DNA of 64,000 nucleotides. Source: Natronobeatus ordinarius. Its GTDB lineage: Archaea; Halobacteriota; Halobacteria; Halobacteriales; Natrialbaceae. The notes under the pieces were generated by a model that worked only from the letters and a program-made list of their open reading frames with translations, was not told the origin of the DNA and made no database searches. Positions 1-8,333 of the stretch are shown in pieces (the first letter of the stretch is position 1; each line of letters opens with the position of its first letter). The stretch lies in NCBI RefSeq assembly GCF_024362485.1, contig NZ_CP101456.1, positions 310,001-374,000 on the forward strand. Direction: 5' to 3'. The translations under genes were made by a program, and so were the position numbers.

Positions 1-79
1 GAGGGGTGTCGTTCCATATGTCAACCCCATGCTGCCTCCTGATTATCGAATTTCGAGTGTATAAAAGGAATTTTCGCTC

Positions 80-102
80 TCGAACCGTTCCGAACGGTTC
101 GA
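80..102. terminator. Perfect inverted repeat, probable terminator of the leftward operon
   Basis: TCGAACCGTTC and its exact complement GAACGGTTCGA are separated by one base. The repeat begins about 40 nt past the stop of the leftward nuclease-like gene and is followed on that strand by an A/T-rich run, which fits a hairpin terminator. A protein-binding palindrome for a gene left of the window is the alternative. Confidence 0.45.
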
Positions 103-140
103 AACCCTTCCATCATACCCTTTCAAAGACTGTCCTCTGC

Positions 141-788
141 TCAGAACAGGTTTTCAAGGTCTCGAAGGTCGTCGTGGTCGACAATCTTACTCGGATACGT
201 TTTGGCCCCAAAAAACCGACCTGCATCCCTGACCTCGTTATTGAGCGTCCATCCGGTCACGAGAGCAGAGTTAAAATCCTTGCTGAGCAACACTTGAATA
301 TACGTGTCTGCTCTAATATCGCTCTCATTGCCTGCTCTGCGCATTCCAACGAGCAAGTCCATGTGATACCCTTCGTTTTGGATTCGAGACTTAACATCAG
401 CCGTCAGAGCGCCTATTTCGAGGTCGCCCGTCTGATAACCATCGTGCCAATCCCAATCAACGCCTTCGTTCTCGCACACGGCGGCAACCACTCCTTCGGC
501 GATTTTTCCCTGCACAGAGTGTTCAGACGACGTTTTGGAGTCTCGTGCGTCCCGAGTGTCTCGCTCACTCTTAGACGCCTCTCTCGCCCAATCCCTAAGC
601 TCTGCAGGGACATCCACGTGCCAATGAGTGCGCCCAGCCCAATCTGTCTCGACAACGGACATGATGCGTACGAGGTCGTCGACATCAGTCGACGGCAACT
701 CAATCTCAGGCAGGTCTGGTTTCGGTAAGGTTCCCAAATCAGGCTCCTCAAGCGTCGAGACCCGATTCCCCGCCACAAACACACTCAT
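141..788 (-). CDS. PD-(D/E)XK nuclease-like protein of the integrated element
   Basis: A 215-residue protein with an acidic, poorly ordered N-terminal third and a compact C-terminal domain. Glu98 in a helix (GKIAEG), Asp122 in GDLEIG and the pair Asp131/Lys133 in ADVKSR reproduce the E-D-x(n)-(D/E)xK layout of PD-(D/E)XK nucleases; the following strands (YIQVLL, SALVTGW) fit the fold. The function is inferred from this motif only; no close family is recognised. It is the last gene of a leftward operon, and its ATG overlaps the stop of the upstream zinc-finger gene (ATGA). It could act in element maintenance, resolution or defence. Confidence 0.6.
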   Translation of the reverse strand: MSVFVAGNRVSTLEEPDLGTLPKPDLPEIELPSTDVDDLVRIMSVVETDWAGRTHWHVDVPAELRDWAREASKSERDTRDARDSKTSSEHSVQGKIAEGVVAAVCENEGVDWDWHDGYQTGDLEIGALTADVKSRIQNEGYHMDLLVGMRRAGNESDIRADTYIQVLLSKDFNSALVTGWTLNNEVRDAGRFFGAKTYPSKIVDHDDLRDLENLF

Positions 789-1063
789 CGAGAGTCACCC
801 CACTCTGACCCAGCGGCGAACGGCTCATCCGGCATCTCGTCCAGGCGTGTGTCCTCCCGTGCCTGCCAATGCTCCCGAGAGCCAACGCAATCCCAGCACA
901 CTCGAGGCTCATCCGACAACTCCACGCCGCTATCCGACACTGACACCGGCATGTGCGGTATGACATCCGACGACCCGCAGCACTCGCATGTCGTCGGTTC
1001 GTGTTCGGCGTCGTCGCTGTCGGGGACGGAGACCTCGTCTAGAGTTGCTTGCGCCAGACTCAT
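785..1063 (-). CDS. Small acidic zinc-finger protein
   Basis: A 92-residue protein with CECCG at residues 27-31 and CWDC at about 57-60, a likely single-zinc knuckle pair with acidic flanks. Both ends overlap neighbours by ATGA (the 34-codon ORF upstream, the nuclease-like gene downstream), so translation is coupled. The start has the purine-rich stretch GGAGGATG upstream. No family is recognised; small zinc proteins of this type in haloarchaeal elements are often nucleic-acid-binding or protein-binding adaptors. Confidence 0.6.
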   Translation of the reverse strand: MSLAQATLDEVSVPDSDDAEHEPTTCECCGSSDVIPHMPVSVSDSGVELSDEPRVCWDCVGSREHWQAREDTRLDEMPDEPFAAGSEWGDSR

Positions 1064-1164
1064 GCATCATCATCCTCCTGTTCGTCGTCATCGTCGTCAG
1101 ACGGCCACTCCACTCGCTCGAGCAGCGCTCGACGACATCGAGCATGCCACTGATGCTCCGTCAT
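1060..1164 (-). CDS. 34-residue acidic microprotein
   Basis: A short ORF of 34 codons fills the gap between the winged-helix gene and the zinc-finger gene. Its ATG follows a strong Shine-Dalgarno sequence, GGAGGTGAT, at good spacing, and its stop overlaps the next start as ATGA. The protein has a basic/aromatic N-terminal half and a tail of nearly uninterrupted Asp/Glu. The operon fit argues that it is real. It may be a coupling ORF or a small DNA-mimic-like protein; nothing in the sequence decides between these. Confidence 0.55.
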   Translation of the reverse strand: MTEHQWHARCRRALLERVEWPSDDDDDEQEDDDA

Positions 1165-1165
1165 C

Positions 1166-1498
1166 TCACATCACCTCCTGACCCTCGACGTAGTCGAGAT
1201 AGGCACGTCCACGGTCCGTAAAGACGACTGCACCAGCCCCAGTCGGCGACGACTCAGGATGCTCCTCGTCGACTCGGAGCAGGTCTCGGTGGACGCATCG
1301 GGTCACGGTCTGATAGCCGTACCGTGTCGACCCGTGCGGTCCGACCCGCTTGGCCAGTTGGTTTCGGGATGGGATTGCCCCGGACGCCACGAGGCGGACG
1401 GCGAGTTCCATTTTTGCGCCAATGCGCCCGTCAAATTCGGTCTCAGCGTTGTTCTCGGTCGATTCAGCTTCATTCGATGGGGTTGTGCTATCCATCAT
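1166..1498 (-). CDS. Winged-helix DNA-binding protein, first gene of the leftward operon
   Basis: A 110-residue protein. Residues from about 28 onward (KMELAVRLVASGAIPSRNQL) read as helix-turn-helix, followed by a wing-like segment and FTDRGRAYLDYV, a common C-terminal pattern of haloarchaeal phage and plasmid winged-helix regulators. It heads the operon 1498-141 and faces another winged-helix gene across 102 bp containing two palindromes, the usual geometry of a lysogeny or copy-control switch. On its strand a TTTATT box lies about 30 nt before the ATG, so the mRNA is probably leaderless. Confidence 0.6.
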   Translation of the reverse strand: MMDSTTPSNEAESTENNAETEFDGRIGAKMELAVRLVASGAIPSRNQLAKRVGPHGSTRYGYQTVTRCVHRDLLRVDEEHPESSPTGAGAVVFTDRGRAYLDYVEGQEVM

Positions 1499-1544
1499 AC
1501 ATCACACATATAAGGAGGAGAATAAAGGTGTATCCCCAACCCAC

Positions 1545-1559
1545 CCCATACTGTATGGG
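1545..1559. promoter_or_regulatory. Palindromic operator candidate between divergent regulators
   Basis: CCCATAC-T-GTATGGG is a perfect 7-bp inverted repeat around one base. It lies between the two divergent winged-helix genes, about 40-60 bp from each start, where a dimeric repressor could occlude one or both promoters. Confidence 0.5.
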
Positions 1560-1571
1560 TTGACCAAACAC

Positions 1572-1596
1572 TTATGCGCACGTGCGTAGTATAAGA
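1572..1596. promoter_or_regulatory. Second palindrome overlapping the rightward promoter
   Basis: The core CGCACGTGCG (1577-1586) is a perfect 10-bp palindrome flanked by CTTAT and ATAAG, giving a 25-bp interrupted dyad just upstream of the ATG at 1601. It overlaps the expected TATA/start region of the rightward winged-helix gene and is a candidate autoregulatory operator. Confidence 0.45.
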
Positions 1597-1600
1597 TGAT

Positions 1601-1867
1601 ATGGCAGACAAAAACTCTGTGAGCGAATTACCCGCCAGGGACTGGGCATGGACCGAGATATTAGACCATCTCTCCGCTGAGGGCAACGTACAAATCAAAA
1701 GAATGAGTATTCCAGACCACAGAAAACAGACCGTGCGGCGGGTGCTCCGGAATCTCGAGGATAAAGGATGGCTCTACCGTGAAAGCCCCCAAAAAGAGAC
1801 CTACTACCCGTCAGACGCAGGAATTCATGTTTTTAGTGGCATCGTCCACAACGCCGACTCCCCCTGA
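1601..1867 (+). CDS. Winged-helix transcription regulator
   Basis: An 88-residue protein: ARDWAWTEILDHLSAEGNVQI, then RKQTVRRVLRNLEDKGWLYRES and a short wing ending in TYYPSDAG. This helix-helix-recognition-helix-wing pattern is typical of small haloarchaeal winged-helix repressors. It is divergent from the regulator at 1166-1498 and shares palindromes with it. It is probably the rightward arm of the element's regulatory switch. Confidence 0.6.
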   Translation: MADKNSVSELPARDWAWTEILDHLSAEGNVQIKRMSIPDHRKQTVRRVLRNLEDKGWLYRESPQKETYYPSDAGIHVFSGIVHNADSP

Positions 1868-1906
1868 ATACAGTAACCCTGTCTAATTAGTGCAAGTTGG
1901 CGTTAA

Positions 1907-1916
1907 GCATATATAC
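1907..1916 (+). promoter_or_regulatory. TATA box for the gene starting at 1941
   Basis: GCATATATAC centred near 1911 is about 30 bp upstream of the ATG at 1941, the spacing expected for a leaderless archaeal transcript. It favours 1941 over the in-frame GTG at 1890. Confidence 0.5.
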
Positions 1917-1940
1917 CCCTACCCCTATGTATCACATGTA

Positions 1941-2234
1941 ATGTGTCAAACAGCCCTAACCGACGACGGCATCGACATCAAAGACAGCGGTATGACAATA
2001 TACGGCCTGCGGAGCGACTACTGTGCGCACCTAACTGTCGTTGCAGAAACAGAAGACAGTATACTGTTTGCTGACGGAACATTTAACGAGTTGGGAGAGT
2101 GGACCGAAGACATCGACGACATCGACGCTAAAGAGCTGTCGAAGCGTATGCATGACCTCGCCGCAGACATCGTCCCAGACCAAGATTGGTCAGGAGCCGA
2201 CCCACTCGTCGTCGCACGAGGCGATGAGCAATGA
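1941..2234 (+). CDS. Hypothetical acidic protein of the integrated element
   Basis: A 97-residue protein from the ATG at 1941; an in-frame GTG at 1890 would add 17 residues but lies upstream of the TATA box. The N-terminal half looks like mixed beta strands (IDIKDSGMTIYGL, CAHLTVVAETEDSILFADGTF); the C-terminal half is acidic and helical. No family is recognised. Its stop overlaps the next ATG (ATGA, 2231-2234), so the two genes form a coupled pair. Confidence 0.55.
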   Translation: MCQTALTDDGIDIKDSGMTIYGLRSDYCAHLTVVAETEDSILFADGTFNELGEWTEDIDDIDAKELSKRMHDLAADIVPDQDWSGADPLVVARGDEQ

Positions 2235-2455
2235 GTTGCATCCCACAACCATACTGCAACGACTGCGACAGCGACGAGCATATCATCAGCATCGGTCGAG
2301 CGAGTGCAGCAGAGCAAGAAGCCCGAGGAGTCGCAGAAGACGCCTACAAGTGCAGCGAGTGCGGAGCGGCGGGGAGCTATGAACACTGCATGCGCACTGG
2401 CGATTATGACGTCGCAGGCGACCTATTCAGCGGAGGCGATGAGCAAGCTCAATAA
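2231..2455 (+). CDS. Small zinc-ribbon protein
   Basis: A 74-residue protein with CNDC (9-12) and CSEC (about 42-45), two Cys-x2-Cys knuckles as in zinc ribbons, plus C3 and C53 nearby. It is translationally coupled to the gene before it. One of five cysteine-rich small proteins in this element; probably nucleic-acid- or protein-binding, but the partner is unknown. Confidence 0.6.
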   Translation: MSCIPQPYCNDCDSDEHIISIGRASAAEQEARGVAEDAYKCSECGAAGSYEHCMRTGDYDVAGDLFSGGDEQAQ

Positions 2456-2497
2456 ATCTTTTTCTACTACTATTACCTTATTCTATTCTATTAAGGA

Positions 2498-2532
2498 TTA
2501 AATATTTGTTGATGTAACACGTATTGTTACAT
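2498..2532 (+). promoter_or_regulatory. Promoter with operator for the 41-codon zinc-finger gene
   Basis: An AT-rich TATA-like segment (ATTAAATATT, about 34 bp before the ATG) is followed by the inverted repeat ATGTAAC (2512-2518) / GTTACAT (2526-2532) with a 7-base spacer. The repeat sits between the box and the start codon, an operator position. Confidence 0.45.
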
Positions 2533-2536
2533 ATAG

Positions 2537-2662
2537 ATGCGAGACAATCGTGACAAAGTCAATATTGACGGAGTGCCAGCATCGGCCATCGAACACATCG
2601 AGACATGGGACATTCCGGAGTGCGAGTGCGGCGATTTCGAAAACTGCGATTTCTGTCGGTAG
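2537..2662 (+). CDS. 41-residue zinc-finger microprotein
   Basis: A 41-codon ORF ending at 2660-2662. The last third carries CEC at 29-31 and CDFC at 37-40, a compact four-cysteine zinc site. It has its own TATA box and a palindromic operator, and it lies next to the origin-like region. Small zinc-finger proteins with two Cys pairs are known as regulators in haloarchaea; assignment here rests on the motif and promoter. Confidence 0.55.
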   Translation: MRDNRDKVNIDGVPASAIEHIETWDIPECECGDFENCDFCR

Positions 2663-2674
2663 CAAAATGCGGGT

Positions 2675-2738
2675 TTTTGGTAGCAAAATCAATTATCCAC
2701 GCTCTCTATGTGTGTGGATAGATTTCTGCGGCATGAAG
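2675..2738 (+). repeat. Left arm of 64-bp inverted repeat
   Basis: It matches the reverse complement of 3099-3162 at 59 of 64 positions by my reading. The mismatches cluster at the inner end. It includes one TATCCACACA iteron on the minus strand. Confidence 0.8.
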
Positions 2739-3098
2739 AAGGAGGGGCCACTACTCTCCAAAAACTAAATCAGCGATAGAGAGCTTCTAACCCACAGTTC
2801 TGTTCTGGCGGAGTTCGTTCCCTATCATTTTCACTTGCTTCTCCTTCCACACTATCCACACAACTTACCTTACAATAATAATATTAATACCAATTTGGTA
2901 GTAATAGTAGTAGTAGTAGTGTAGTTGTGTGGATAGAATGATGGTGATGCAGAGTGACGATGGCTGATGAAGCTTGATGAGAGTGCTGTGGATGAAAGCA
3001 GGAAGCCAACGCAATAACGCCTGAAAGTCGCTTTTAGTGGCGTTTTGACTCACTGCCCAGTAATCCTTAATTGGTTGTTTTTGGTTACCCCTCCCTCT

Positions 3099-3162
3099 CT
3101 TCGTGGCGCAGAATCCTATCCACACACATAGAGAGCGTGGATAACTGATTTTGCTACCAAAA
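3099..3162 (-). repeat. Right arm of 64-bp inverted repeat
   Basis: Reverse-complement partner of 2675-2738 with five mismatches. It lies about 60 bp upstream of the candidate initiator gene, so binding there could also control that gene. Confidence 0.8.
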
Positions 3163-3225
3163 TACAGATTTTTGCTTCCAATCGAGGATATACCTATATA
3201 CTCCCCCACTGTTAATTAGTTTGAG

Positions 3226-4464
3226 ATGACATTACAGAATCTCGACAAAGAACTGGCAGCGAAGGAGAATGGTAGCAAAAACAGCAAAAATCTGCGACTT
3301 CGAGAAGAATATGTCGAGTGGATAGAGCAAACCGCCCAGGAGAGGTTTGGCTCGTCGTACAAACAGGCCCGGTTGGTCGAGCACGTTATCGACTTTTACC
3401 GCAAATATCACGACGACATGGGGTCAATCGAAGGAGAACTCCACGAGATTAAGACGATGCTCGAAGAGATGCAGGAGACTGGGGTCGCCGTCTCTAACGA
3501 TTCTAACGCCGACGCCGACGACGAACCCACGCCTGCAGGCAATGAGTCGGACGATGAGACTGTTGACGAGGCATCTGATGCAGACGAGAATGATGACCTC
3601 TCCCCTGCAGAGAAGCTGGAGAAGATGGCTCATAACGGCGAGTCAATCGACCCAAGGGAGCACGACCTATCGGTCGCCAACGGAGCACGGGGGGTTGACC
3701 GTACTGCTATCCTGATTGCCGCAATGCGGCACGAGTCGACCCAAGATGAGTGGTCCAAGGAAGATATCGAATCGTTAGCATCAAGAGAGATGAATTATTC
3801 TGGCTCTGGAGCTAATGACCGAGCCAACGAAGTTATTAATCATATTGATGCCTCCCCGCTCCAGAAGCTCGAAGACACGTGGCTGCCAAATCGTGTGGAC
3901 GAGGATATCCGGGGGACGAGGATGAGGGAATTCCGAAAAACAAACAGTGAGGCAGTCTACCGCCGAGAAATCGGTAAATCTCTCGCTGATTATATCGGCT
4001 CGCACGACCTCGACACAGATGTTTATTTTTCCACGAATGGGGCAATGGCACAAGGAATGCTCGATGCCTACAAAACCATAATGCGGGCAATCCACGTTAA
4101 TCCTCGAAGTGAGCATCACAAGACGAGTGCTAAGCTCGCATTGGATGCGTTCGTGGACATCATCGAGCAGGACGGCCTCGACGCCGTCACGCCACTCGGT
4201 GTGGGTGGGACACTCGCTGACGAAATTACGAAAATACGTGTGCAGATGGGCATCGAAGATGTCCCGCTTGACGACCACGACCTCGATACGACTGAGGGCA
4301 TCAAAGCCTACGTCAACACGCATAATCTCAGAGTGTCGACTAAAGCACAAGACCAACTCGCCGACCTCGACGACGCAACTGAAGTCATCTCGACTCTCGT
4401 CGACGATTACAGTGACGCACCAGTTATTACGGCGAGCCATGTGGACGAGGCTCTTAAAAACTAA
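3226..4464 (+). CDS. Candidate replication initiator / DNA-binding protein
   Basis: A 412-residue protein. Residues about 20-65 (lysine-rich, then LRLREEYVEWIEQTAQERFG) look like a small helical DNA-binding segment, followed by a predicted coiled coil (about 68-85), a long acidic low-complexity linker (90-140) and a C-terminal helical half of unknown fold. No rolling-circle HUH motif, Walker A or polymerase motif is visible, so it is not a classical Rep. It is called a candidate initiator because the origin-like inverted repeats lie directly upstream. A TATA box (CTATATA, near 3198) gives a leaderless start. Partitioning or transcription control are alternatives. Confidence 0.5.
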   Translation: MTLQNLDKELAAKENGSKNSKNLRLREEYVEWIEQTAQERFGSSYKQARLVEHVIDFYRKYHDDMGSIEGELHEIKTMLEEMQETGVAVSNDSNADADDEPTPAGNESDDETVDEASDADENDDLSPAEKLEKMAHNGESIDPREHDLSVANGARGVDRTAILIAAMRHESTQDEWSKEDIESLASREMNYSGSGANDRANEVINHIDASPLQKLEDTWLPNRVDEDIRGTRMREFRKTNSEAVYRREIGKSLADYIGSHDLDTDVYFSTNGAMAQGMLDAYKTIMRAIHVNPRSEHHKTSAKLALDAFVDIIEQDGLDAVTPLGVGGTLADEITKIRVQMGIEDVPLDDHDLDTTEGIKAYVNTHNLRVSTKAQDQLADLDDATEVISTLVDDYSDAPVITASHVDEALKN

Positions 4465-4475
4465 TCCACCCAACT

Positions 4476-4658
4476 TCAATCGAGCGTGAACGTCGGGTAT
4501 TGCGGGGCGACTTTGATGAGGTCTCCATCCGCTGACGTCCATTGCCGCATCATCATTTGCATCTCAGCGTCCGCTACGTCTGCTAAATCGTCCGCAGTCA
4601 TTGATTCGTCGGTGGCGTCGACGACGAGTGCTCCGGCTTCCAATCGGATGTGAGCCAT
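4476..4658 (-). CDS. Small acidic protein, unknown
   Basis: A 60-residue protein convergent with the candidate initiator, 11 bp between stops. A beta-like N-terminus (MAHIRLEAGALVVDATD) is followed by an acidic helix with several methionines. It lacks cysteine clusters and has no recognised family. It is kept because it fits the gap, has haloarchaeal acidity and lies among packed small genes. Confidence 0.45.
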   Translation of the reverse strand: MAHIRLEAGALVVDATDESMTADDLADVADAEMQMMMRQWTSADGDLIKVAPQYPTFTLD

Positions 4659-4742
4659 ACGCTATTGATGACGCACTGGGTCGTCTTATCCGGCTTAATT
4701 TTCTGCACAACACCAATGCACTAATTTACCACCTTCATATGT

Positions 4743-4892
4743 ATGGAAGCAAATATTGATGCACTCATCGAACAGCACTATGTATCGACTGGTGATTCCG
4801 GATGGTATCGATGCCGTCGATGCGGTAAGAAGGTCTATTGTGGTGACACTCGGCAGGATGACCTGTGGATGCACGAGCAGCGAGACCACTAA
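4743..4892 (+). CDS. 49-residue zinc-finger microprotein
   Basis: A 49-codon ORF. The motif WYRCRRCGKKVYC begins at residue 21 (C24, C27, C33), followed by histidines at 44 and 49, giving a C2H2-like zinc site. Helical N-terminus (IDALIEQHYVSTG). Its stop codon ends exactly one base before the stop of the convergent zinc protein at 4893. Confidence 0.55.
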   Translation: MEANIDALIEQHYVSTGDSGWYRCRRCGKKVYCGDTRQDDLWMHEQRDH

Positions 4893-5072
4893 TTATACTG
4901 TTCCAAATTCTGTATCACAATAGGGACAAATATATGGGGCACAGGATTCACATACGGCGATGATATTTCCAGATTCTTTACATTGATTTGGGCACTTGCT
5001 TCCTGAACTATCTTCCTGAAATCTGTCCGATACCGTAGTCTTGCAATCAGCACAAGTGTATACTTTTGCCAT
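4893..5072 (-). CDS. 59-residue double zinc-ribbon protein
   Basis: A 59-codon ORF with four knuckles: CADC (7-10), CPNQC (27-31), CESC (41-44) and CPYC (49-52). Eight cysteines in 59 residues imply two zinc sites, like rubrerythrin-type or ribosomal zinc ribbons. It abuts the convergent gene at 4892 with no intervening base. The count and spacing of cysteines make it very likely a real gene. Confidence 0.6.
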   Translation of the reverse strand: MAKVYTCADCKTTVSDRFQEDSSGSKCPNQCKESGNIIAVCESCAPYICPYCDTEFGTV

Positions 5073-5110
5073 CGGTCGTTAATGACAGAGGAGACTAATA
5101 ATAGTGCCTA

Positions 5111-6103
5111 TCAGATATTGTCGAGATAGCCTCTCCGTTGCTCCATTTTCTCCCGCTCATCCCGGCGGTCGTAGTGCTTGTCCAGCACGTCGGTTGAGAC
5201 GTTTGCCCGGTCAGAAACGACGGTCTCTGGCATATCGTTTCGCAGAAAGTGTGTGATGGAACCACGCCTGAATGCGTGCGCAGCTACGCTGCTGGGGCAT
5301 TCGTAAGCATAGTTATCGCTCCGTTCAACGCTCCCCCGGCATTCGTCTAACTCCTGCTCATGTGGACACTCGCCACTGAACCAACAGGGTCTCGTCAGTC
5401 GATAGCACCATTTTCGCACTGTATTTCGGGCTATCCTCCCGTGTTTCGTGGTCAGCAGTGGGGCTCGCCCGTGTTCATCCTCGATGTCAACTCGCTTTTC
5501 CTCGATATAGTCGTCGAGGATTCGGCATGTTTCCTCACTTATGGCGACCATCCGCTCCCCTTCTCCTTGGTTCTTGAGCGGTGTCTCGGTCTCTGGACGG
5601 TGTTCAAGGCTTAGATACTGTTCCTCGGGGTGGTAGTCGTCGAGGTCGAGACCTCGCACAGCCCCGGTTCTTGCTCCAGTCCGCCAGAGCAAGAGAGTCA
5701 ATGCGTGGTGCATGCTCGCATAGTCGAATCGGTCCAAGCGTTCGAGGATTGCTTGTGCGACGTCCGCTTCAACCTCGTCGTCTCGGACGTTCTCTCCCTT
5801 TCTCAACGTTGGTGAGTCAGCCACGTCGACGAGGTCGTCATCGACGTAGTCGAGACGGCTCATATACTCCAAAAATCCCCGTAGGGTGTCCACGTGGGAC
5901 TTGATTGTGGGTTTCGATAGGTTTTGGTCTCTCAATTCAGTTTTATACTCGTGGATATCCTGCTTCGTCAACTCTTCAACGCCCCGGTCGCCCCACCAAC
6001 TCTCAAATTTCGAGAGCCGGTATTGGTAGGATTGGACGGTTTGGTGTGCGCAGTCGCTCTCTCGGGCGTCGAGGTAAATTGTGATGGCTTTGTTTGGTTG
6101 CAT
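5111..6103 (-). CDS. Tyrosine recombinase / integrase
   Basis: A 330-residue XerC/D-type integrase. The N-terminal SAM-like arm-binding domain (about 5-90) contains TVQSYQYRLSKFESWW. Catalytic residues visible are Arg145 (RTGARTG), His276-x-x-Arg279 (HAFR) and the nucleophile Tyr311 (DKHY). Between the two catalytic blocks is an insertion with C240, C246, C255 and C269 that could bind zinc. It starts about 160 bp from the tRNA-tail-like repeats, the usual int-att proximity of site-specific elements in archaea. It should integrate and excise the element that extends left of the window. Confidence 0.9.
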   Translation of the reverse strand: MQPNKAITIYLDARESDCAHQTVQSYQYRLSKFESWWGDRGVEELTKQDIHEYKTELRDQNLSKPTIKSHVDTLRGFLEYMSRLDYVDDDLVDVADSPTLRKGENVRDDEVEADVAQAILERLDRFDYASMHHALTLLLWRTGARTGAVRGLDLDDYHPEEQYLSLEHRPETETPLKNQGEGERMVAISEETCRILDDYIEEKRVDIEDEHGRAPLLTTKHGRIARNTVRKWCYRLTRPCWFSGECPHEQELDECRGSVERSDNYAYECPSSVAAHAFRRGSITHFLRNDMPETVVSDRANVSTDVLDKHYDRRDEREKMEQRRGYLDNI

Positions 6104-6227
6104 GGGGTTCCAGTCTCTGTGTTTGGTGGACCGTCAGCCAGAGTCGCAACAGCCTGTAGCTCGGGTCACGAGTTGGATTGGACTTCGAGTACGGTCGTGG
6201 GTGAGCCGCCTACGGCGGCGAATTAGG

Positions 6228-6288
6228 CTGAGGTCCTGAAATCTTTGATTTCAGCAACCTCAGACGTGGTTCGAATCCCATCGTGCCC
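6228..6288 (+). repeat. tRNA-tail-like module 1, candidate attachment site
   Basis: A two-tier hairpin (CTGAGGT 6228-6234 with ACCTCAG 6257-6263; CTGAAATC with GATTTCAG inside) is followed 2 nt later by a 23-bp sequence (6266-6288, GTGGTTCGAA...CGTGCCC) resembling the T-loop and acceptor 3' strand of a tRNA. One G is missing from the T-stem, so it is not a functional tRNA. It lies next to the integrase and, unlike modules 2 and 3, lacks a left inverted arm, as if cut there. Confidence 0.6.
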
Positions 6289-6330
6289 GTGATTCTGCGA
6301 CGAACGGACGTGAGGAGCGAATCACGGATC

Positions 6331-6405
6331 GCGATGGGTTCGAATCAGACCGAGGTTCTGCGCGACGCGCAGGTTCTCGGGCGTGGTTCGAATCCCATCG
6401 TGCCC
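6331..6405 (+). repeat. tRNA-tail-like module 2
   Basis: The same 23-bp tail (6383-6405, identical) is preceded 2 nt upstream by an unrelated hairpin (CCGAG 6350-6354 / CTCGG 6376-6380 with CTGCGC / GCGCAG inside). An arm at 6331-6345 (CGCGATGGGTTCGAA) is nearly complementary to the tail, so the module can fold into a long stem. Confidence 0.6.
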
Positions 6406-6445
6406 TGATTCTGCGAGGAGCGGACGCGACGAGCGAACAGCAAAC

Positions 6446-6530
6446 CGCGATGGATTCGAAGGAGACGAGTCGCAGCGTCCGAACGAAGTGAGGACGACCG
6501 TCTCGGTGTGGTTCGAATCCCATCGTGCCC
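6446..6530 (+). repeat. tRNA-tail-like module 3
   Basis: Third identical 23-bp tail (6508-6530), preceded 3 nt upstream by a third hairpin (GAGAC 6462-6466 / GTCTC 6500-6504; CGTCC / GGACG inside). The left arm CGCGATGGATTCGAA (6446-6460) again pairs with the tail with a one-base bulge. Confidence 0.6.
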
Positions 6531-6587
6531 GCGCGGAATCTGAAACTTCAGAAACTTCTGCGGCATCTATACCAGAAGGACTCAGTT

Positions 6588-6610
6588 ATCGTTGCCAAGC
6601 CGGCAACGAT
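6588..6610. terminator. Inverted repeat downstream of the FokI-like gene
   Basis: ATCGTTGCC and GGCAACGAT flank a 5-base spacer, about 85 nt past the stop of the leftward FokI-like gene. It could be its terminator hairpin; no T-run follows, so this is tentative. Confidence 0.3.
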
Positions 6611-6695
6611 GTCAAACACATGACTGAACTGGACGCTGGCAGCCGTCGTCGGTTCATCAGGTTCTAACGGGCATTCTGGTAGCCGAGATCTGTAA

Positions 6696-8333
6696 TCACG
6701 AAAACGCCATATCTAAAGCACCTTTCGCAGTATCAACGTCAAACAGGTCGGAGCCATAAAACGTCGATAGGGGAAGTTCTCTCCCATCTTTGTCGTGGTT
6801 TTCCAACCAGTACTCGGCCAATCGAACGAAGTCAACTGACCGAATCAGCCGAATATCGATCCCACCGACCAGTTTCTCGAGTTGATTCGCATTGGTCAGG
6901 GCAGTCTCGGTGAAATCTGGAGCGATAATGACGAACCACTTGACCTGATGTTGCTGGTTTTTCGTATCGATGTAATTTTTGATCGTACTTTGCGTATTGG
7001 CTCCGAGTTTGAACTTGCCAGAGCGACGTTTATTATCCCAGAGGAGCCATTCTCCGTCCTGTTCTATCTCGCCATCGGCGACGCTCCCACTTGCTTGCTG
7101 CCCCAAGAGATTCGTTCCGTCGAGATTGAAGACTTCGCGGAAGATCTCTGCCGTAGCCTCTTCGAAGAGCACCTCGAGTTTCTTCGATTGGTCGGCCTCG
7201 TCGACGGTTTCCTGTAATTGAGGTGGAATGAGCTGGATGTTTCCATCTGAAATGTCCTCGAAGCAGTTGAGATACAGCTCCGCATCGACTTCGTCTTCGA
7301 CTAGATCAGTCTGGGACTGCTCGAAGTACTCGATCGTCTGCTGGATCATCTCACCAGTTCGACGTTTGTGGGCGTCGAGACCGTACTGATCGACGATCTC
7401 TTTGAGTTCGTTCTTAGTGAGCATCGACTCGAGGAGTTCACTCGGGTATACGCCTGCATTGACGAGGCTCTCCCGTCGAAGGTCGTTTCGCCCCTTGGTG
7501 GCAGAAGTGACGCCGAAGTGTGCCCGAGCGTCGACGAGTCTGGATTGGTCATCGAAGTAATCCAGCGTCTCCAGCATCGTCAGGAAGCTCTCCTCGGACA
7601 TTTCGTAGTACAGCCATTCACGGATGAAGTCGACGTACTCTTCGGGGATTCCCACAACGTCACCGTGTTTGGGATCGACGACTTCGTAGACGATTGCCTG
7701 TTCTTGCAGCGACCAGAGCCCCTTCTCGATCGTGTCAATAGCGTGTTCGGGTTTTTCCGACCGAGAGACCTTCGGGAAGCGGTCGATTGCCGCCAGTCGT
7801 TTGAAGAAGTCCATCCACGTGTAGTAGTTATGTTTCTGTGACTGGTCCTCGTTGTGGAGTTCAAAGTAGCTGTAAACCATATGCAACTCCGAATCGTCAA
7901 CGTCGGAGCCGTAATCAACGGCAGCTTTCGCTAAGTGGAGTAGGTCGTCAGAGAAATCTTCTTCAACGTACTCATCGACGAGCCGACGTTGCCACGTCTG
8001 GACGCTCTCGAGTAGAGCCGTCTTGTCCATTTTATAACCACGCTGCTGGATCAATGTGCGAAGCAGGCCGTATCGGATAACGAGTGCCTGGTACGGTGAG
8101 TCGTTAATCGAACCCAGTCGTGGCGGCTCGAAATCGTTGAGTTCCAAGGCAAGGCGTTCCTCGTCGGCGAGTGCCGGTGCATACGTTTCGAGGTATTTCT
8201 CTCGGTCCTCGAATCCCTCGTGTTTGAACGACTCCGGGTCGAAGGCCTCTGTTTTGACTTTCGTATCATCCTTCAAGAATCGTTTTCGTTCGTGACTTTC
8301 CCATTCTTCGTCAATTAAATCCTTAATTTTCAT
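6696..8333 (-). CDS. Orphan FokI-like nuclease
   Basis: A 545-residue protein whose C-terminal part (about 385-510) reads like the FokI cleavage domain: a helix plus GTNLLGQ, then ADGE (Asp420), LLWDNKRRSGKFKL (Asp433, Lys435), a helix (STIKNYIDTK) and a strand (KWFVIIAPDF). These line up with FokI PDG, VDTKAYSGGYNL and FLFVSGHF, i.e. the PD...D-x-K catalytic set. Residues 1-380 are helical, acidic and unrecognised, presumably recognition or regulatory. No methyltransferase or other restriction partner is adjacent. It lies just right of the tRNA-tail modules, a place for accessory cargo, and its codon use is less GC-biased than the core genes. Probable defence or restriction nuclease; substrate unknown. 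Confidence 0.65.
   Translation of the reverse strand: MKIKDLIDEEWESHERKRFLKDDTKVKTEAFDPESFKHEGFEDREKYLETYAPALADEERLALELNDFEPPRLGSINDSPYQALVIRYGLLRTLIQQRGYKMDKTALLESVQTWQRRLVDEYVEEDFSDDLLHLAKAAVDYGSDVDDSELHMVYSYFELHNEDQSQKHNYYTWMDFFKRLAAIDRFPKVSRSEKPEHAIDTIEKGLWSLQEQAIVYEVVDPKHGDVVGIPEEYVDFIREWLYYEMSEESFLTMLETLDYFDDQSRLVDARAHFGVTSATKGRNDLRRESLVNAGVYPSELLESMLTKNELKEIVDQYGLDAHKRRTGEMIQQTIEYFEQSQTDLVEDEVDAELYLNCFEDISDGNIQLIPPQLQETVDEADQSKKLEVLFEEATAEIFREVFNLDGTNLLGQQASGSVADGEIEQDGEWLLWDNKRRSGKFKLGANTQSTIKNYIDTKNQQHQVKWFVIIAPDFTETALTNANQLEKLVGGIDIRLIRSVDFVRLAEYWLENHDKDGRELPLSTFYGSDLFDVDTAKGALDMAFS

Follow-up and report, generated by a model that had tools for sequence, protein, structure and literature searches.

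The repeats at positions 6228-6530 of the 64,000-nucleotide stretch of Natronobeatus ordinarius DNA analysed here (the window) are two units of a repeat family together with the end of an integrated virus-like element. Judged from its sequence, the family has the behaviour of a very small mobile element or attachment site that targets tRNA genes. It appears undescribed so far: our searches of an open-access library turned up no description of it, and we found no Rfam model. A repeat family carried by most tRNA genes of this genome and present in 287 of 292 Halobacteria genomes bears on how tRNA genes, att sites and small false ORFs are annotated, and offers an archaeal setting in which to study a possible use of folded DNA by recombinases and the gathering of mobile DNA at tRNA genes. 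Excision, transcription and effects on fitness are open to direct test, Haloferax and Haloarcula being genetically tractable.

Three identical 23-mers lie at 6266-6288, 6383-6405 and 6508-6530, where a preliminary description of the window had placed three T-arm/acceptor-like sequences. Each matches the 3' portion of tRNA-Arg(UCU) known as the TΨC/acceptor tail, taking in positions 53-72 and 2-3 bases of flank; only its final 21 bases come from the tRNA, the initial GT being part of the hairpin side. The tRNA gene itself (G000:C1:295883-295958, reading GTGGGTTCG... and, in its 3' part, ...CGTGGGTTCGAATCCCATCGTGCCC) is outside the window, 20.3 kb upstream across a pleolipovirus-like island. The two-tier hairpins announced upstream of the three copies are real (6228-6263, 6350-6380 and 6466-6505), each ending 2 nt short of its tail copy. 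Compared with dinucleotide shuffles, their RNA folds reached z values of -4.8, -7.0 and -1.8 for modules 1, 2 and 3, so that module 3, only slightly better than its shuffles, is by itself a weak fold; folded as single-stranded DNA, the units that end at copies 2 and 3 (units 1 and 2 below) gave -3.9 and -0.8. The inverted arms of modules 2 and 3 were recovered at 6332-6347 and ~6447-6460, with one tail base unpaired in each. Module 1 does lack a full arm, as had been noted, but it keeps a 6-nt remnant, GAATTA, at 6220-6225. In modules 2 and 3 a first hairpin (A) also follows the preceding tail, a feature absent from the preliminary description. The spacers between successive tails (94 and 102 bp) are 78% alike, resemble the sequence behind many other tRNA genes and match the unit family; neither contains a convincing gene, and Rfam covariance models run against window 6000-6800 gave no match up to E=1. 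The three modules, presented as alike, are not of one kind. Their conserved fold stands, but module 1 is the attR of the island, with an insert in its T-loop, and modules 2 and 3 are solo units of a class-wide family.

Positions 1-6288 form the right part of the integrated pleolipovirus-like island (~20.3 kb), recognised by tail copies at both ends and by the similarity of its NTPase and integrase to viral proteins; it lies between tRNA-Arg(UCU) and copy 1. The NTPase is 29% identical to its His2/HHPV3 counterpart. The tyrosine integrase (330 aa, minus strand, 5111-6103; PF00589, Phage_int_SAM, PHROG 1 integrase) is ~41% identical to those of SNJ2 and HHPV4. Taken whole, the ~20-kb island (L006 5960-20000 plus window 1-6266) is a pleolipovirus-like provirus with the NTPase, phrog_1938/1979/2231 proteins and the SNJ2-like integrase; an IS66-type transposase and, near the tRNA end, a second integrase fragment are also present.

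The attR of this island (copy 1) is a decayed tRNA-Arg body whose T-loop is interrupted by a two-hairpin insert, all on the plus strand. The body (6156-6202, tRNA positions ~7-56) has a local alignment score of 39, matched by 0 of 1963 random window segments, and is conserved at the att end of the orthologous island of genome G046. The insert begins with a small hairpin, GAGCCGCC-TAC-GGCGGC (6203-6219), in place of which locus L391 has CCGACC..GGTCGG, and continues with a second one (6220-6265) made of the GAATTA half-arm and hairpin B1 (6228-6263; fold z -4.8), whose architecture is kept with a different sequence in L391 and L407. Tail copy 1 follows (6266-6288), identical to the 3' end of tRNA-Arg(UCU) except for the leading GT. 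The G046 island, with an integrase 86% identical, retains the att body and tail and has different hairpins of the same fold; the hairpins thus covary between the two orthologous islands. At L407 (genome G062), an attR carries a class-1 hairpin B, one of the types found in the units. Behind tRNA-Leu-GAG (L082) stands a pseudo-tRNA-Leu in which a two-hairpin insert sits precisely within the T-loop, as in the window attR.

A hairpin beside the att core is present in the window island, L391 and L407 and absent in Halfgib1, Humcor2, Harhisp1 and SNJ2, isolated pleolipoviruses whose attP is a core of 12-15 bp only, with no comparable hairpin. We therefore rejected hairpins as a general part of the pleolipovirus attP. 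Two more islands with integrases (~18-19 kb; L115 and L117, at G000:C1 ~1455193 and ~618157) separate tRNA-Arg(CCG) or tRNA-Met(CAU) from the unit that was displaced, and their attR keep only ~12 bp of tail, like the bare attP of the isolates. Because the four isolates' attP have no hairpins and L115 and L117 look alike in this, integrases of the pleolipovirus kind need none.

Copies 2 and 3 are read as solo units displaced by the island, since their spacers belong to the family and islands separate a tRNA from its unit. The ordinary explanation would be att duplication by a single island, with unrelated hairpins. It accounts for copy 1, which is the attR and the only copy for which an element with an integrase lies between the tRNA tail and its repeat; it is refuted for copies 2 and 3, which with their spacers are members of a family spread through the genome and the class, and as an account of the whole locus it is scarcely credible. 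That the modules go beyond passive att duplication, as had been suggested, is supported by the covarying units and by the G046 island with its different hairpins and same fold. The tail copies might instead serve as decoys, drawing integrating elements off the tRNA gene, and they do match the core used by integrases (annotated attP of haloviruses, 13-15 bp). Yet in all three islands examined the element lies between the tRNA and the units, meaning that the tRNA itself was used, and a tRNA is normally restored when an element integrates at its 3' end, which leaves little to gain from protection; we regard decoy sites as very unlikely.

A unit is ~75-160 bp long (~120 bp in the window), contains no genes and consists, in order, of hairpin A, antiT (the complement of that tRNA's T-arm), hairpin B and a copy of tRNA positions 53-72. 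In the window all parts are on the plus strand. Unit 1 comprises hairpin A (6289-6325; fold z -3.1, A1 in the family alignment), an antiT one base short of the T-arm complement (6332-6347), which pairs with the tail copy at 6383-6405, a class-1 hairpin B (GAGGTTCTGC..GCAGGTTCTC, 6350-6380), and that tail copy, number 2, as its end (covariance model match 6291-6398, E 1.6e-8). Unit 2 has a degenerate hairpin A (6406-6446), 78% alike to unit 1 and folding no better than shuffles. Folding places its antiT, also one base short, at 6447-6460 and its class-2 hairpin B (GAGTCGCAG..CCGTCTC, apex GAACGAAGTGA) at 6466-6505; it ends in tail copy 3 (6508-6530; covariance model match 6407-6523, E 8e-10). 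Two ORFs over the units, 6260-6523 (-) and 6383-6667 (+), are by-products of the tRNA-tail repeats and carry a risk of false gene calls.

The family extends through the genome. With 6228-6540 as query, BLAST against the same genome returned many loci; of those outside the window region, the nine best all adjoin a tRNA gene. Behind most of the 46 tRNA genes stand one to several units, always on the tRNA sense strand, directly after the 3' end and with a T-rich start; at least 12 tRNA genes have no unit. A copy of the gene's own tail (≤2 mismatches) occurs within 320 nt downstream of 32 of the 46 genes, 25 times exactly, against 0 of 1998 comparisons with non-cognate tails, which excludes chance. 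The covariance model, built from 20 units, matched 47 places, each behind a tRNA gene or displaced from one, with a single orphan (L118, G000:C1:3924686-3924792). This orphan has no adjoining tRNA, follows an Arg-CCU tail and ends in a Val-UAC-like tail; it is apparently chimeric. Exact class-1 B matches number seven in the genome, each beside a tRNA gene or displaced unit, and B hairpins are also common to tRNAs with different tails. At the Val-UAC locus (L053) two 118-bp units stand in tandem without a single base of difference, the product of a very recent duplication or of a second insertion. At Met-CAU (L068), the second unit contains a MITE-like palindromic element that appears to be inserted.

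When 43 units were folded, most yielded the same two hairpins. An alignment of 20 units from one genome contains 27 consensus pairs, in 18 of which both partners change. Pairing holds in 93.4% of cells (78.0% after shuffling), both sides change in 87 cells (27 after shuffling), and sliding the pairing by one column makes the signal collapse. Covariation extends to the apical pairs of hairpin A, and an apex of the form GA-RC-loop-GY-GA is common to hairpin A and many B hairpins. The idea that the fold is kept while the sequence changes, for which a lack of covariation in homologues was named as fatal, is thereby borne out, by the 20 units and by the orthologous islands alike. The covariation is strong, yet not by itself proof of selection, because the units are related and palindrome correction is possible. 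In the antiT/tail stem of 85 units, an unpaired base falls on the tail strand in 40, on antiT in 8 and on neither in 37. AntiT best matches its own tRNA in just 17 of 43 units (~1.2 expected, an estimate). K-turn and intron (bulge-helix-bulge) readings of hairpin B were dropped after inspection by eye.

Related genomes had been proposed as the place to look for the modules, and there the family proved near-universal: the covariance model matches the 287 Halobacteria genomes in 74 of 77 genera, the match number of each genome in this survey being an 'at least' figure. In a sample of the phylum, 41 of 43 Halobacteria had matches and ~204 genomes from outside the class had none. A tail-spacer-tail pattern at tRNA-Gly(UCC) occurs in genomes of Halorubrum, Halosimplex, Haloplanus, Halorientalis and Haloarchaeobius, and the tails track each genome's own tRNA variant (for Gly-UCC, GGCCGGCGC, GGTCCGCGC and CCTCCGCGC). 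Nucleotide searches of phage and plasmid records found no unit. Two matches of the class-1 B pattern in viral contigs were judged chance, the contigs resembling those of bacterial phages, and the class-2 pattern was unspecific; none of these viral-contig matches fit the covariance model.

Units swap hairpin B, decay distally and, inside a genus, turn over. Among 39 tRNA species shared by the congeners G005 and G028, neither genome has a unit at 22 and only one has it at 9; a single unit in each occurs at only 6, and those units differ. Many orthologous tRNAs of G047, from a related genus, lack a unit, and where both it and the present genome have one, hairpin A can be conserved with a hairpin B of another class (Arg-CCU, Val-GAC). 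Two Halorubrum strains (L142, L146) match in A and in both flanks and have different B hairpins. Hairpin B is exchanged at T-loop microhomologies. Of the arrays, 12 have a worse distal tail, 2 a better and 7 an equal one (sign test, about 0.013), and tail mismatches cluster at positions 70-72; the units look inserted one after another. They apparently also move between tRNAs with the same tail and between genera: the Val-CAC and Val-GAC units of G028, which have the same tail, are 95.5% identical over the whole spacer, and the Glu-UUC unit of this genome is 93.5% identical to that of G005, which belongs to another genus, although the DNA downstream of the two is unrelated and G028 has no such unit. 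In G047, the tail copies of Lys-CUU, Phe, Thr-CGU and Pro-UGG (L280, L282, L284, L299) now have GTTCA(C/T/CG)AATC-like forms: an insertion has recurred at one and the same point of the T-loop. The preliminary description had offered, as its own alternative, that the hairpins are unrelated scars of separate insertions; this is partly true, as the units turn over fast, are frequently absent at the orthologous tRNA and have the look of serial insertions.

These comparisons bear on two further explanations. According to one, the units are structured 3' trailers of tRNAs, acting as terminator, processing decoy or source of small RNA, and the covariation reflects selection on RNA. The constant sense-strand position right behind the 3' end, the T-rich start and the strong covariation up to the apex of hairpin A suit such a role, and antiT could pair with the tRNA T-arm or with the tail copy. 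A conserved host RNA is nevertheless disfavoured by the congeners, whose orthologous tRNAs are so often unit-free (22/39 in both, 9/39 in one), by three islands that part units from their tRNA by ~18-20 kb, by the dozen or more tRNA genes here that do without a unit and by the lack of an Rfam match, and we consider it improbable. According to the other, palindromes and tail copies at tRNA genes are generated and kept uniform by replication slippage, template switching and gene conversion, without enzyme or function. Palindrome correction by template switching can itself yield paired changes, and the identical tandem Val-UAC units, the identity of tail and neighbouring tRNA, the exchange of B at T-loop microhomologies and the fast turnover would all follow. 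Slippage is universal, however, and the fold is common across the class with none outside Halobacteria in the phylum sample; dozens of tRNAs have the same specific motifs (class-1 and class-2 B, the GA-RC-loop-GY-GA apex), and one unit is common to two genera despite unrelated flanks. Such passive origin is unlikely, though it deserves more weight than a host RNA.

We favour, with somewhat less than even confidence, the explanation that the units are very small (~75-160 bp) folded att-like elements that use tRNA-gene 3' ends as their site and are moved by tail recombination. The tail of a unit would recombine with the identical tail of a tRNA, catalysed by a candidate tyrosine recombinase supplied in trans. 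The moving form may be a single strand in which antiT/tail pairing makes the site double-stranded, that is, a folded att site. Each event would add one unit beside the tRNA gene. In the window, tRNA-Arg would first have had two solo units, and a pleolipovirus-like element would then have integrated at the tRNA tail, pushing them 20 kb away. At the level of sequence, the units present cognate tails, folds that covary, tandem arrays decaying towards the distal end, rapid gain and loss, replacement of B and exchange, and folds related to theirs stand at the att end of integrase-bearing islands. Movement by tail recombination is favoured by the cognate specificity, turnover, cross-genus unit with unrelated flanks, B swaps and polarity, by the bias of the bulged base to the tail strand (40 vs 8), and by the islands, where hairpins differ at same-fold att ends of orthologues and a class-1 B occurs at the L407 attR. 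According to a review (PMC8371274), stem-loop structures of att sites are bound by an archaeal XerA (PaXerA), less tightly than dif; we count this too in favour. The same explanation is weakened by the hairpin-free attP of the isolates and the similar look of L115 and L117, by the lack of a unit in nucleotide searches of phage and plasmid records, by the difficulty of recombining a ~120-bp double-stranded circle and by antiT being best for its own tRNA in just 17/43 units. Whole-unit movement at cognate tails leaves the B hairpins common to different-tail tRNAs unexplained, and gene conversion between same-tail tRNA loci could mimic movement. A bolder version, which we think rather doubtful, is that Halobacteria own a folded-site recombination system, with tRNA 3' ends as attI and antiT-B-tail hairpins as attC, in which gene-less mini-elements would be serially inserted at most tRNA genes by a recombinase reading the T-arm in folded single-stranded DNA.

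The units share features with several known systems. With the tRNA-targeting proviruses of pleolipoviruses (SNJ2, HHPV4, Halfgib1) they have in common the tRNA 3'-end site and the direct tail copy, and module 1 is such an attR. Unlike these proviruses, the units are gene-less, tandem, located at most tRNA genes and equipped with covarying hairpins and a complementary arm; att duplication applies to copy 1 only, there being no convincing gene between the tails at copies 2 and 3. Integron attC sites are imperfect palindromes of conserved fold and variable sequence, with strand-biased unpaired bases, arrayed beside a fixed site. The units are likewise folded imperfect palindromes with strand-biased unpaired bases (40 vs 8), in arrays that look as if built beside a fixed site, but they have neither cassette genes nor a common core, and their arm matches the neighbouring tRNA. 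The 178-bp repeats of Escherichia coli tyrT (rtT region) stand in tandem behind a tRNA gene, each with ~19 bp of the tRNA 3' end. The units too are tandem behind a tRNA and include its 3' end; the tyrT repeats are known at one tRNA locus, whereas the units are class-wide, found at most tRNA types and composed of own-tail copies and swappable hairpins. REP/BIME sequences and the palindrome-associated transposable elements (PATEs) of Haloquadratum (PMC3119063) resemble the units in being short palindromes that are non-coding, lack terminal inverted repeats and are plausibly mobilised in trans. The copies of REP and PATE lie scattered through intergenic DNA, a placement that the units do not show in this genome; nearly all units stand behind tRNA genes or have been displaced from them by islands, and their ends are target-specific.
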